Part shown: in pieces, positions 30,132 through 62,484 of the stretch | Layout of the letters: every line of letters starts with the position of its first letter | Numbering within the stretch: the stretch's first letter is position 1 | Assembly (NCBI GenBank): GCA_023375675.1 | Contig: JALQBC010000036.1 | Span: 310,001 to 374,000 of the forward strand | DNA: 64,000 nt | Direction: 5' to 3' | Source: Cytospora piceicola | Taxonomy: Eukaryota; Ascomycota; Sordariomycetes; Diaporthales; Cytosporaceae | The notes under the pieces: model-generated | What the model saw: the letters and a program-made list of their open reading frames with translations, nothing else | What the model was told of the DNA's origin: nothing | Databases searched by the model: none | Made by a program: the position numbers and the translations under genes

Positions 30132-30412
30132 GATTTATATATATGCCTGAGTGCACCAATTGTTAACTATGGGTAGAGACAAAAATTGAACTCAAACGCT
30201 TCCTTCTGGGCATGAAGGGTGAGAACGGATAGGTTGCAACATGAATGAAAGAGCTATGCTTTCCAAGAGCGGAGAATGTGAGCAGCACCAATCACAAGAT
30301 GGGCAAAACAAAACACCGCAGCTCGACAAGGCTCCCAGATCACACAGAAATATATGCGTCCTACACGCCCTCCAATTAGCATCTTCTATCATCCAGCCAG
30401 CCAGCCAGCCCC

Positions 30413-33400
30413 TCAGCCCTCCGCCTCCACCGTGGGCCCCTTCTCGTCAACCTGCGCGATGAGCTCCCAGTTCACCCTCAGGTTCTCCGCCGAGGCCAGC
30501 TTGCTCTTGACCTCGGTCTCGTGCCTCTCCGCCACCAGGCGCCGCAGCGCCGCCGCCAGGAACCCCGCCACCGCGTCCACCGACCACCCGTCCGGCACCT
30601 GCTCCAGCACCTCGGCCACGTCGAACCACCCGCCGAACCGCTCCAGCAGCGCCCCCGTCTGCTCCAGCCGGTCGCTGACGTCCCCGATGGCCAGGAACTC
30701 GCGCAGCAGCGCCCGGAACAGCCCCGCCTGCGTGTCCTCGGCCGGCACCGACGCCCGCCGGCCCGGGTGCGGCGTGTAGATGCTCGCCCCGCCCCGCAGG
30801 CAGTACGACACCGCCGTGTCGTAGTCCCCCAGCCGGTGCACGAGCAGCCGCAGGGCCTCCTCGTGCCGGCGCTCGCGCCCGTCGAGGATGATGGCCTCCG
30901 GGACGAGGAGTTGCTCCTCGGGCTTGTCGGCCGGCAGGGCCGAGGATATGCGCGCGCGGATCTCTTTGAAGTCGTACTCGTGCGTCTCCCCGAGCAGCTG
31001 GAGCAGCCGCAGCCGGCTGTGCCACAGGTCGTCCTCGGGCGGGGCGTTCTCGTGGAGGAATTGTCTGTAGGTCGGCTTCGGTGGCCTGAGTGCTCGATAT
31101 GCCACGTATGTAGCAGACATGGCCTCGCGGGCTTGGGCGGACGATTGGAGCTCGTGGATGACGATGTCGAGGTAGTAGGTGATGAGCTCGTTCACATAGT
31201 TTGTATGCCCCTTCCCGAACACGAGGTGCTCGAGGTAGTATTTGACAGCATCGGGTGCTTCCTCGCGGAGAATGGCAACCACCTGTGCTGGCTCGAACTT
31301 GGGGGCCCGGCCTTTGTCGTCTGCAAAAACCTGTACGCCGAGCTTGGGATTACGGTTCGCAAGCCAGATGCCGTATTCCTGCACAAGTGCCTGGCTGCTA
31401 ATCTTGGAAAGATATTCGCGAACACGCAGCTCACCGTCCCGGAGCTCGCCGCCGTCGTCCTGTTCGCCCTCAATGATGCGCCTCCATGTGGCCAGCACCT
31501 CGGCCGCCATCTTGCGGCTCTGATACAGACGGCTCAGAACGAAAAGCCGATGGTACGACTCCAACAGGTCTACGGCTCGATCGAAACAGTCGACTCCTTT
31601 ATCGACAAGCTCATAAAGCTCCGATCGAACGCTGCCGGTCTTGGCCAGCCCCTTTGGTGAGGTCTTGTCGAGATCGAGGAGAACCCTGAGGAGAGCGGCA
31701 TCCACTGTACGGTATATCTCACCCTCGTTTGCGGTGCTAGCCATGCCCTTTTTCCGCCCAGTCGCCCAGAGATATGATTTAATGAACAGGAGAACTGTCT
31801 CTCCCAAATCATCGACGGTCTGGCCTACCTCACCAAACTTCTCTGATGCCATGTACCTCTCAAGGGTCCCTTTGACACCGCCGAATATCCATATGCCTTT
31901 CTTAGTTTCGATGATCTCATTTTGCAGGTCTGGGATCAGCCCAATGACCACCCTTGGGTCTATGTTCGAATCAAGTAGCACCTCCTCCATGGCTTTGAGT
32001 TCGGGCGGGAACGGCGTTTCCCTAGAGTGAAGGAAGCTGATGAAGAGAAGTACGCTTGCCCTTTGTTTTATATAGTTGAATGTCATGAACTCCAGCTCTG
32101 TTTTTGCATCTCGGCCCCTTATGCTTGATAGAATGGAGAACAGTTCGATACGATCCTCTGCCGAATGAGGAGGCTCTTGCGCTTCCAAGGCCGTACATGC
32201 AAGGCTAGCATCGAGCTGCAACAACAACGGGTTTCTCACAGCCCACCATATACGATTGTCAGACCACACTGCAAGTCGTGAGGCCGTCTTGGCAAATCTT
32301 TTGGCAAACTCTTCTTCTTCTTCGTTCCTCGAGGCTTCCCACCCGTCCGGCAAGGGCGGCTCGTCGGCGTCTCTTTCGAAGAGTTCCCTCTCCTTGGAAA
32401 TTCTCTCTATGGAGTGAGCTGTTCGAGAGTCCGCGGTCTTCTGTGATGCTGTCGAGGTCCCGGATCGGCCGAAGGAAAAGGGAGAGAACCTTTTCAGGCA
32501 GAGCTTCTCCACCACTTCCCGGAGATTGAACTCGTCTGCGCCCATGAGCGACCGGATACCGAGAGAAGGAGGACTTTTGGTCTCATTTGATTCTTGTGAA
32601 CTCTTGACAGGGGCCTCCAGCCAATGCTTTGTCGCTTCGTCCTCGCCGACGTTTACATCCCAGCGCTGTATTTCGAGACCAGAGCGGGGACCGTCTGGAA
32701 GCTCCTTGGTCATCGACGCAAGGACATAGCCCTCCTCCTCGTCACCCATAGAAGGTCTCGAGGACGACAGGTCGGGGACTCCACCATCAACAACTATCTC
32801 CCGAGGGTATCTGTCGAATTCCAAAGTAGGTCTCGTAGGATCGCCGTCCAGATTCACAAACATGCCGATGCCAGGGTCCTGAGGTCCAGTGCCTGTCACG
32901 ATGAGGAACTCTTCAGGCGTGGGGGAAACAATATGCGGTTTCAGGATCACTGGGCCAGTCCTCGGCGCAGGAGGAAGCCTAGGGGTCTGCAAAGTACCGA
33001 TCGGTGGACTGGGTAGTGGCTTATCCGTGGAACCGGACTCTTGGTTAGCTTGTTTATCAGGACTCCCTGATCGTTGCGGAGTGTCCGATCCTTGATAGTC
33101 TGAGTCGTAGCCATCACCAGTGTTGTTGCCCTGTCTCCTGATCGCCTGTGACATGTACCCTCCAAGGCTTGAGCTCCGGCTGTGGCCCTGGGCCTCGTGA
33201 AATCCTGAGCTGCCAGGACGACTATGCACAGAAGAAACACTGCGCAGAATCCCAACATCCGAGTTCCCAGCAATGTTCTGAGCTTGACCTATGTTTGATT
33301 GCGAATGGTCCAACGAGGAAATGGGCATAAGGGGGATCTTCAGCTGGCGGTCAACGTCTAAGAGGGCATAGTTACGCGTGTCGGCAACGCATGCTATAGA

Positions 33401-34158
33401 GTCTCTCCGGACTGATATCGTGCTCCCAGCGAAGTCAATTTGCTACAAGTATGTCAGTCAGCCCGTGACCGTATCTGACCTCGCGCTTTCGGGTCCCCTT
33501 ACCTTGAAGACTCTGGCATCTTCGCCAACCCGGACCACCTGGATCTTGCGGGAGAGAGACAGCATGATTGTCTCCCCAACAGGGCGCTGTTCTTTATTGC
33601 CATCATTCTCATTTCCCAACTGATCCAAGTCTAGCCCTCCTATCCAGTAGCAGTTTTTCACCCGCACTGTCCCAAATACAGGGCTGAGCTCCGGGAGGGA
33701 GTAGAAAGTGACGGTATTGTTGCATAGCACACATGCCTTCTGGACGCGAGACAGGAGGAGAATCTGTTGCACTCCGGGTTTCGTACTTCCGGCTACGGAG
33801 CTCTCGTTGAATGTCGGGCGCAGTCTCGAGGCGAGTATAAAGACCGGCTGGCCGGACTTGTCGGCAGGGTCGGGGGGTATCTGGACGAAATGGAGCAGTT
33901 CCGAGGCCGAGGTGCCGATGTAGAGGTTTCCGCCTGGGAGCCGGCAGTCAGCATGAGCAATTGACTGGGCCAAAGGTGACTGTTACCGAGGTAGTCGACG
34001 CAATTGATCCTGACGTCGTCGTCGTCGTCGCCGTCCTCGGACAGAGGAACGTCATGCAGCAAAGTGCGCAACACGAAGGGGCCCGTCGCCGTCGCCAGCT
34101 CTTGCTGCGCATCCCTCGAGCTGGCTTCAGCTTCCTGGCTCGGTGGGGTGGAAGCCAT
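30413..34158 (-). CDS. Vps3-like CORVET subunit / TGFBRAP1-type protein (CNH + Vps39 domains)
   Basis: Predicted tethering-complex subunit for early endosome to vacuole traffic. Exons are 34158-33987, 33933-33503 and 33442-30413 in matching phases, giving 1210 residues. The N-terminal part reads as a citron-homology (CNH) beta-propeller: GGNLYIGTSASELLHFVQIP, then QQILLLSRVQKACVLCNNTV and VKNCYWIGGLDLDQL. A long Ser/Pro/Gly-rich insert interrupts it at about residues 240-350. The C-terminal two thirds are helical repeats with the Vps39-type regions (ALLRVLLDLDKTSP; CFDRAVDLLESYHRLFVLSRLY; RFGGWFDVAEVLEQVPDGWS). There is no RING finger at the end, which fits Vps3/TRAP1 rather than Vps8. An Asp run coded by GAC repeats lies near 34005-34025. 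It is divergent from the CASP golgin gene. The exact subunit name is inferred. Confidence 0.85.
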
Positions 34159-37840: not shown

Positions 37841-37845
37841 AAAAA
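37841..37845 (-). terminator. Pol III T-run terminator of the tRNA gene
   Basis: Five T on the tRNA strand, nine bases after the tRNA 3' end. Further T runs follow at 37831-37835 and 37814-37821. Confidence 0.7.
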
Positions 37846-37854
37846 GTAATGGAG

Positions 37855-37981
37855 TAGCTACAACTGGTTTCGATCCAGCGACCTCCGGGTTATGAGCCCG
37901 GCGCCTTGATTGGGTGTTAGTGCTAATTTTGTATATAGGAACTTTGTGGGTTGACTCACTCTTCCCCTGAGCTATGTAGCT
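37855..37981 (-). tRNA. Initiator-type tRNA-Met (CAT) with a 55-nt insert in the D-stem
   Basis: Removing 37959-37905 leaves a 72-nt cloverleaf: acceptor AGCTACA/TGTAGCT (7 bp), D-stem GCTC/GAGC with loop AGGGGAA, anticodon stem CCGGG/CCCGG with loop CTCATAA (anticodon CAT), T-stem GCTGG/CCAGT with loop ATCGAAA, and discriminator A. A1:T72, three G:C pairs at the base of the anticodon loop, A54, A60 and the short D-loop are eukaryotic initiator-tRNA hallmarks, so it should serve translation start. The usual tRNA intron site after the anticodon is uninterrupted. The A box (37974-37964) and B box (37876-37866, GGATCGAAACC) are present, as are an upstream TATA and a T-run. The insert separates A25-side bases GA from GC of the D-stem. 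A pseudogene is the main alternative, but every stem pairs once the insert is removed. Confidence 0.85.
37905..37959 (-). other. Spliceosomal-intron-like insert inside the tRNA D-stem
   Basis: 55 nt starting GTGAGT and ending AG (ATCAAG). It has a CACTAAC branch-type sequence whose presumed branch A (37917) lies 12 nt before the 3' end. Length and all three signals match introns of filamentous-fungal protein genes. Exact removal regenerates the D-stem GAGC. No bulge-helix-bulge typical of tRNA endonuclease sites is evident by eye. Confidence 0.75.
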
Positions 37982-38005: not shown

Positions 38006-38011
38006 CTTATA
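38006..38011 (-). promoter_or_regulatory. TATA-like element upstream of the tRNA gene
   Basis: TATAAG on the tRNA strand, 25-30 bases before the tRNA 5' end, where fungal Pol III genes often carry a TATA box. Confidence 0.5.
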
Positions 38012-60135: not shown

Positions 60136-62484
60136 CTAGTTTCCATTGAGCTGTACACCGTCCAAGGGACTGCCAGGACCAGATCGCTTGGTCCTCAGAG
60201 TCAGAGGGAAAGCATACTCATCAGGGTCTTCCTCCTCACTGTAGTCTCCTTGTCAGCTTGAGTCAAAAGAAATTGGGGAAGGGGGTGATATCGCTTACGG
60301 CAATTTCCAGGCTACGTAGTCTTCGGTGTTGAGGCCCTCATGGCCCTCTTGGATGCTAGCAAAATCTCCAGGCGTCATCATACCCGTCCGGTCGCGAGGT
60401 GATCCGGGTACAGAGAAGGGCCTAGAGATCTTTTGCTCGACACCAGGGATATAGTCGTCATCCTCCAAGTCGCCCTCGAAAGAGTTGGGATACGCCCTCC
60501 GCAGGGCAAGCTGACGGGCCTTGACATACTCCATACCCATTCGCTTCCAGTCAAGCAGATCGCTGAGGCGCTCGGTGCGGTTACGCTGGTTGATGCGTTG
60601 TCTGCGGCTCTTCAGGGCGAATTCATGCATGAAAGAGGCCAACTGGTTGACCGAGTCATCCACTCCCTTGTTCCTGCGGTCGACAATGTAGATGCCGTAG
60701 TCGCTCGAGTTCTCAATGAGCTCCTCCATGTAGCAGCCGAATCCGGACAAGTTGGTCGTAATGCTGGGGACTCCCATAACGGTACACTCGGCTGGAGTGT
60801 AACCCCATGGCTCATAGTACGACGAGAAGACGCCGAGATGCGTTCCACGGACAAAGTCGTCATAATCCAGCGGTAACACAGGATTGGCCGAGTTCAGGAA
60901 CTCTGGATGGAAAATGACCTTCACGCGGTCGGTCGGATGGTTGAACAGCTGTACCCGTCGGATCTGGTTCAGGACAGGGTCCTCGGCGTCGTTCACCATG
61001 TTGTGTGTAACAATTGGTGGGAGACCATGTCGCTTCATGGCAAACAGGCGGCGTCGAAGAAGGACACGATCCTGCGCAGTGATAAGCTCCTTCTCGTCTG
61101 GCAATGGGTCTCCATCATGCCACTTCAGCGATCGCTCAAACACGCGCCGTCCAATACTCTTTTCGATGATGTCGACTGTATCTCTCAGCGATTTTATCAC
61201 AGCCTGTCCCTTCAGAGCTTCCACGGTCAATGAGGTCGTCTGAGCTGGCATGATGATGAATGCGACCACAGTCGTCTTACTTCCAGAAACCTTGAGCCTG
61301 TGGTTCAACCGCGCGAGTGACTCAATAAACATATCGACTCCCTTGTTCCTAAACTCATAACGGCCTGCCGTGAAGAAGTAGAGGGTATTTTCCGGATCAA
61401 AATCGTAATGACCATAAAAGTGCCCCCTCACGAAATCGTGGATCTTTTCCTTTGAAACCTGATGCAAGTTCTGGAATTCGTGCACGGCCGAAAACTTGGT
61501 CACGTTGAGACCATTGGGTAGCACACCATCAGGCTTCCGCTTGAGAAGGTGCTCGCTCTCGTAGGCCGTAATGTGGGACACTGTCGTGAAGACGTCACAT
61601 GCGTGTGCAGCCGCTCTTTCTATGCAGTACCTGTGGTAGATACCACGCTTCCCGGCCTCCGCATCGACGTCGAACCACTGAAGGTTATTGTAGAAGTCGA
61701 CAGACCCGGCGCACAGATATCTACCGAGGAGAGTTGCGTGAGTCGTGAAAATGGTAGTGACATCGATGTGTCGCCTTTTCGTCAATGGAAGCGCTACACC
61801 GGCCAGCCACTCGTGGAAGTGCGCAATGACAGCTTTCTTCTTCTCGTGGCAGACGTACTACGTTTGTCAGTATCTCTGTACCGAATAATGTGAGACTCAA
61901 AAGTACATACCTCTCCGAGGAACCAAGCGACGAGGTACCCAAAAACGATAGCTTCGTTTGTTTCGTCGTCACCTGGAGGCGCAGGAATGGACGCAATGTT
62001 CCACAAATCCGTCTTCCATTCGTCCATGTACTTGTAGGCAGTTTTGGTGTCGATGAGGATAACTCTCGGTGCTCCTTCGATCAGCCAGCGTCCGTACAAT
62101 ATACCGATGCCGCGGTCTCGCATGGATTGGATGGTAGCAGCCAGTTCTGGTGTCGTTGGCTCGAGCTCCTCCACTTCGACAGCAGCCTGTTGTTGTTGTT
62201 AGCTGATGTGTCCACACTGATCGTCTCCAAGCAAGACTAACCGATTGGTGGTTCAGGGGCCCGATGAGTGTGTAACGCTCGCCATATTCCGCAGTTGTCA
62301 CTGGGGCTTTGGACTTGAGGACCGAGTAGATACCGCCGACTGCTTGTGTATTAGAAAGAAGCCACAGACCAAGACCACTGCCCATAATCTCTCACGTACC
62401 TCGGTGGGCGACTTCAGTTGCGATCTCGAAGAGGATGTGGTCCTTGACCTCCCGAGGCGCGCGGTCTCCGTCTTCGCCAGACAT
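60136..62484 (-). CDS. GSY1: Glycogen synthase (glycosyltransferase family 3)
   Basis: Cytosolic enzyme adding glucose from UDP-glucose to glycogen. Five exons: 62484-62400, 62339-62242, 62186-61911, 61857-60299 and 60238-60136; all phases agree, giving 706 residues, the size of the yeast enzymes. The N terminus carries the nucleotide-binding [13 protein letters not shown] segment. [10 protein letters not shown] and [11 protein letters not shown] are family landmarks. The catalytic pair is Glu502/Glu510 in [18 protein letters not shown]. The regulatory arginine cluster [20 protein letters not shown] binds glucose-6-phosphate in yeast. The tail has SVPGSP and MMTPGD, which look like phosphorylation sites. 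The last exon supplies [17 protein letters not shown], a conserved ending that is lost if intron 4 is retained, because a TAA lies at that donor. Confidence 0.96.

Follow-up and report, generated by a model that had tools for sequence, protein, structure and literature searches.

Transfer RNA (tRNA) introns and messenger RNA (mRNA) introns are taught as separate matters, the former being cut by proteins and the latter by the spliceosome. Among small structured RNAs, only U3 and U6 were known as of 2017 to be often interrupted by introns, according to one account (PMC5832005). Insertions in the D- or T-arm of eukaryotic tRNA genes elsewhere mostly lie in one of many synonymous genes and are supposed to mark pseudogenes, and the tRNA introns of the Guillardia nucleomorph, 3-24 nucleotides (nt) long, have no known splicing route, as stated in another study (PMC4090602). 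Here we describe an initiator tRNA-Met gene on the minus strand (37981-37855) of a 64,000-nt window, the whole stretch analysed, from the Sordariomycete Cytospora piceicola (GCA_023375675.1, contig JALQBC010000036.1, positions 310,001 to 374,000). The gene is split after nt 22 by a 55-nt insert, which is best explained, and very probably so, as a U2-type spliceosomal intron that would be removed from an RNA polymerase III (Pol III) precursor tRNA.

ARAGORN calls no tRNA in the raw window, and the Rfam tRNA model gives a weak match to 37924-37855 (30.3 bits, with the cut-off at 29). Once the insert is removed, ARAGORN reports a tRNA-Met(CAT) with all four stems and a score of 116.2, which bears out the claim of a first-pass annotation that an initiator-type tRNA is divided in its D-stem by an insert with exact GT-AG borders. 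When 45-65 nt were removed at every offset, 221 of the 1533 removals yielded a tRNA call and none scored above the GT-AG removal, with which two others tied: a one-base register shift that leaves the identical RNA, and a removal of 58 nt whose borders are not GT-AG. When folded by energy alone, the spliced RNA formed the acceptor and T stems and not the D and anticodon stems, which offers no support; energy folds of tRNAs are known to be weak. The insert falls between gene nt 22 and 23 (conventional 23/24) in the D-stem, and the anticodon loop CTCATAA is uninterrupted, so that the canonical 37/38 site is free of an insert, as the annotation had also maintained. The restored molecule has an A1-T72 pair (AGCTACA.../...TGTAGCTA), GGG/CCC pairs in the anticodon stem (GGGCTCATAACCC) and A54 in the T-loop (GATCGAAAC), features that count as hallmarks of an initiator. 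The trinucleotide A54U55C56 is stated to be an initiator tRNA feature in a published study (PMC3978253).

The insert is not peculiar to the window. A genome-wide pattern search of the assembly, 43.6 megabases (Mb) in 99 contigs, found four anticodon arms of the initiator type (reversed control, one place), belonging to loci L009, L010, L011 and L012 on contigs C1, C25 and C32, the last of which holds two. When these genes are aligned, as the first-pass annotation had suggested, each of the four carries an insert at the same site (56, 56, 56 and 55 nt). Given a 55-mer, the chance of a GTRAGT start, an AG end and a CTAAC no more than five positions away from its proper place is of the order of 1e-7 by simple arithmetic, and the arrangement is not a matter of chance because it is the same in all four initiator genes found. 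A search of the assembly with the spliced 72-mer returned eight exon pieces of the four genes and no contiguous copy, and a pattern allowing up to three mismatches recovered the same four genes at 0 mismatches plus three places at 3 mismatches (reversed control, four), with no intron-less gene found. A T5 or T6 run starts at +9 to +12 after the gene end in all four copies, and a TATA-like element (TATAA or TATAG) stands at -30 to -32 in three of them. The annotation had allowed that intact intron-less copies might supply all the initiator tRNA, and none was found in this assembly; its suggestion of a silenced copy fares poorly, since the insert is present in four of four copies found, no copy without it was found, and the exons are identical.

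Indeed, exons and introns differ sharply in what they have kept. All 72 of the 72 exon bases are identical across the four copies, whereas the introns have 39-53 pairwise identities, and the flanks at a distance of 20-150 nt show no more likeness to one another than shuffles do (12 pairwise comparisons, z from -3.0 to 1.7). If the nearest 20 nt are included, a slight likeness emerges (z up to 3.1), as expected from the TATA-like and T-run elements. The middle of the C1 intron compares with the other three no differently from shuffled sequence (z 0.5-0.7), with its ends and branch motif kept, and the other three are alike in the middle (z 5.1-9.8). Every copy begins with GTGAGT and ends with AAG, which fits the GT-AG borders and GTRAGT-like 5' splice site of U2-type introns, and the branch A of ACTAAC lies 12 nt from the 3' end in all four, the putative branch A of the window copy being position 37917. 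Invariant columns make up 15 of 15 in the signals (5' splice site, ACTAAC and the last three bases) versus 16 of 41 elsewhere in the introns (Fisher exact p = 1.8e-5, a rough value for a comparison that rests on four related rows from one genome). The spliceosomal-type signals that the annotation had read from the window gene, GTGAGT, CACTAAC and AAG, are thus invariant in the four copies. Judged from these alignments, the genes look functional, and their introns look free to change outside the parts that the spliceosome has to recognise. The four introns look like descendants of one, duplicated with its gene, because they share site, ends and branch motif. This shared site and these shared signals do not favour the mobile-like intron that the annotation envisaged, nor does the one limited pattern search for such introns in other tRNAs, a weak search that gave 130 places versus 270 in the reversed control, and hence no excess, with part of the places considered. 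The features of the window gene are collected in the table; the A and B boxes are labelled there according to what we take to be the motifs of these elements.

Features of the split initiator tRNA-Met gene in the window (positions are those of the window; the gene reads on the minus strand)
Feature	Position	Strand	Evidence
Exon 1, nt 1-22 of the initiator tRNA-Met, AGCTACATAGCTCAGGGGAAGA	37960..37981	-	identical in 4/4 genomic copies
Content of exon 1: acceptor 5' strand, D-stem 5' strand, D-loop, first two bases of D-stem 3' strand	37960..37981	-	
Spliceosomal-type intron, 55 nt, GTGAGT...CACTAAC...CAATCAAG, last bases CAAG	37905..37959	-	
5' splice site GTGAGT	37954..37959	-	invariant in 4/4 copies
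Branch-point motif CTAAC	37916..37920	-	invariant, same spacing, in 4/4 copies
Exon 2: remainder of D-stem, anticodon arm with CAT, T-arm GATCGAAAC, acceptor 3' strand	37855..37904	-	identical in 4/4 copies
A box TAGCTCAGGGG, unbroken within exon 1	37964..37974	-	sequence
B box GGATCGAAACC, initiator type, unbroken within exon 2	37866..37876	-	sequence
T5 run, Pol III-type terminator, +10 from gene end	37841..37845	-	
TATA-like element at -30	38007..38011	-	

The introns of the initiator genes resemble others in the same genome. A glycogen synthase gene in the window (60298-62482, minus strand) is interrupted by three introns, one of 60 nt (CTAAT, branch A 11 nt from the end), one of 55 nt (CTAAC, 12 nt) and one of 53 nt (CTGAC, 9 nt), and once these are taken out the part that was read forms an open frame. 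Among the best 120 of 7997 matches to its protein, the highest with a species name is Xylaria bambusicola (91%), but Hypoxylon texense and Metarhizium majus reach 91% as well and Claviceps 90%, and metagenome proteins reach 95-96%; by this one protein a Sordariomycete host is likely and a member of the Xylariales possible. A U6 small nuclear RNA (snRNA) gene (L054, C68:682383-682331 and 682302-682243, minus strand) contains two spliceosomal-type introns, one of 53 nt (GTAAGT...TACTAAT...AAG, branch A 11 nt from the end) and one of 60 nt (GTAGGT...TACTGAC...CAG, branch A 12 nt from the end). With these introns spliced out it aligns along its length, with some differences, with a second U6 gene of this genome that lacks introns (L053, C63:24818-24720). 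The C68 gene is accompanied by a T-run and a TATA-like element, and its second intron contains a B-box-like GAGTTCAAGTC; a B box also lies inside the U6 intron of fission yeast. In size and branch spacing the initiator introns resemble these five reference introns, whose branch spacing is 9-12 nt and whose sizes are 53-60 nt. The U6 precedent to which the annotation appealed is therefore present in this very genome as a two-intron gene, so that spliceosomal removal of introns from a Pol III RNA is probably at work here already. No intron-sized insert was found in the two U3 genes (279 and 279 nt) or the one signal recognition particle (SRP) RNA gene (274 nt) that were identified, each an end-to-end model match among the best candidates scored.

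The tRNA introns at the canonical position are of another make. The genome-wide Rfam tRNA search scored 63 of 1659 candidates, 58 of which matched, and the tRNA inventory is to that extent incomplete; 52 tRNA loci were run through ARAGORN, with 6 of the 58 Rfam-matched places lying outside this set. With introns allowed, in a search that ARAGORN limits to the anticodon loop, 60 tRNA calls were obtained in 48 of the 52 loci, at least one gene being counted twice (the overlapping L007 and L020), and the four loci that received no call are the unspliced initiator loci. Nine of the 60 calls were flagged with an intron near 37/38, and the unflagged calls L027, L035, L042, L048 and L049 are, as judged by eye, long enough to hold a canonical intron. 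As ARAGORN places them, none of the nine flagged introns starts with GT and none ends with AG.

How would such a gene give rise to a functional initiator? The four genes would carry one ancestral U2-type intron of 55-56 nt in the D-stem, and Pol III would transcribe each split gene, with its A and B boxes intact, through to the T-run. U1 and U2 would then read GUGAGU and ACUAAC, with AAG serving as the 3' splice site, and the spliceosome would act in place of the tRNA endonuclease, so that the intron is released in lariat form and GCUC pairs with GAGC in the D-stem again. The ends and modifications of the tRNA would be made afterwards as usual, and the supply of initiator tRNA, and hence translation initiation, would come to depend on the spliceosome. 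Transcription by Pol III, splicing, lariat and dependence on the spliceosome are all steps that we infer from the gene sequences. Taking these steps together, we consider it likely, with somewhat more reserve than for the intron itself, that the whole cytosolic initiator tRNA pool comes from Pol III transcripts spliced by the spliceosome, tying translation initiation to spliceosome activity.

It is conceivable that the insert is instead a non-canonical tRNA intron of the bulge-helix-bulge type, cut by the tRNA endonuclease and joined by the tRNA ligase. Canonical tRNA introns do occur in this genome, and bulge-helix-bulge introns are known in archaea and in the red alga Cyanidioschyzon merolae (PMC4090602). 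However, such an intron predicts neither the GTGAGT, CTAAC and AG of the insert nor their conservation within it, and the insert resides in the D-stem rather than at the canonical nuclear position 37/38. No bulge-helix-bulge was found at the exact junctions, where the four copies form 2 of 4 central, 0 of 3 outer and 1-2 of 3 inner pairs, but the test is weak: scored against the strict motif, the initiator junctions reach 3-4 of 10 pairs and the nine canonical introns, themselves poor fits, 4-6 of 10, so that the comparison has little power. On balance, we regard removal by the endonuclease as quite improbable. Another scenario is that the four copies are dead, or are tRNA-derived repeats, and that a working initiator gene resides elsewhere or is absent from the assembly. 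D- and T-arm insertions in eukaryotic tRNA genes are, after all, mostly supposed to mark pseudogenes (PMC4090602), and the four genes are not among the 58 Rfam tRNA matches, for which 63 of the 1659 candidates were scored. Yet dead copies would hardly keep 72 of 72 exon bases identical next to diverged introns and unrelated outer flanks, nor would they be expected to retain T-run terminators in four of four cases and TATA-like elements in three of four; moreover, only four copies and no other initiator gene were found in the 43.6 Mb. We therefore rate this scenario as highly unlikely. Finally, the mature tRNA might simply keep the insert, which would then extend it at length between the D-stem and the anticodon stem, held by GCUC/GAGU pairing, and the predicted fold of unspliced L011 does keep this helix. 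It is missing, however, from the other three predicted folds; the stronger conservation of the splice signals than of the remaining insert would be left unexplained; and an initiator of 127-128 nt would need to fit eIF2 and the ribosome. Retention thus strikes us as scarcely credible.

The spliceosomal intron, which the annotation had suspected and which we favour over these scenarios, has points against it as well. In the predicted folds of the unspliced RNAs the 5' strand of the D-stem pairs over the 5' splice site in L011 (GCUC/GAGU) and L009 (AGCUCA/UGAGUU), and not in L010 and L012, and because of this pairing folding may compete with U1 and splicing. The initiator introns show no strong pyrimidine tract, four related sequences give the conservation test limited power, and an intron-less initiator copy could be missing from the assembly. 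A loose intron-pattern scan of the window is also of little help, as it gave 8 matches versus a shuffle mean of 4.0 and a maximum of 9 in 30 shuffles, which is weakly above expectation and proves nothing alone.

If removal by the spliceosome is accepted, all the gene copies found for an essential tRNA seem to have come to rely on that machinery. The spliceosome could then routinely process a Pol III tRNA precursor, the start of translation would hinge on splicing, and this tie would exist in a genome in which a gene for the spliceosome's own U6 would also need splicing. These initiator genes offer a direct way of testing how Pol III transcripts come within reach of the spliceosome. Annotation of fungal tRNAs would miss such genes. 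They are easily missed because ARAGORN calls none of the four unspliced copies and because the non-canonical intron search of tRNAscan-SE 2.0 is described for archaeal candidates.

A few observations lie beside this argument. Dense tRNA clusters occur on C65 and at C21:384810-398602, and TCA anticodons on C65 are read by ARAGORN as selenocysteine; both clusters look mitochondrial, and the one on C21 may represent mitochondrial sequence lodged within a nuclear contig, or else a join made during assembly. In the window, a 1009-codon stop-to-stop frame (30413-33442, minus strand) has no Pfam match and is overlapped by a 426-codon frame on the plus strand (30380-31660). A search for initiator-type patterns in viral contigs and prokaryote genomes gave one match, an intron-less eukaryote-type initiator tRNA-Met at L100:4389-4419 in the IMG/VR contig IMGVR_UViG_3300027708_000252.

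Among the described systems, the canonical nuclear introns at 37/38 share with the initiator introns their residence in a nuclear tRNA gene and the need for removal before use, but they differ in position, in boundary sequences and in the presumed enzyme. The introns of archaea, nucleomorphs and Cyanidioschyzon likewise lie outside 37/38, those of nucleomorphs also in the D-arm, but the archaeal and C. merolae introns are tied to bulge-helix-bulge cutting by the tRNA endonuclease. The insertions elsewhere in eukaryotes that are supposed to mark pseudogenes differ in another respect, since here all the initiator copies found are interrupted. Searches of the open-licence literature in PubMed Central (PMC), a collection without subscription papers or bioRxiv, listed no paper that reports a tRNA gene with a spliceosomal intron. 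The U3 small nucleolar RNA (snoRNA) of fungi comes closer, in that an mRNA-type intron interrupts a folded non-coding RNA (PMC5832005), but the host RNA is not a tRNA. Closest of all are the U6 snRNA introns of fission yeast and other fungi, where a short GT-AG intron with a branch motif likewise sits in a small structured Pol III RNA. U6, however, is itself part of the spliceosome, unlike the tRNA that plays host here, and an uninterrupted U6 gene exists in this genome, whereas every initiator copy found has the intron. Thus the kind, a Pol III gene with a spliceosomal intron, is known from U6, and its presence in all found copies of an essential tRNA is, as far as our search extends, new.
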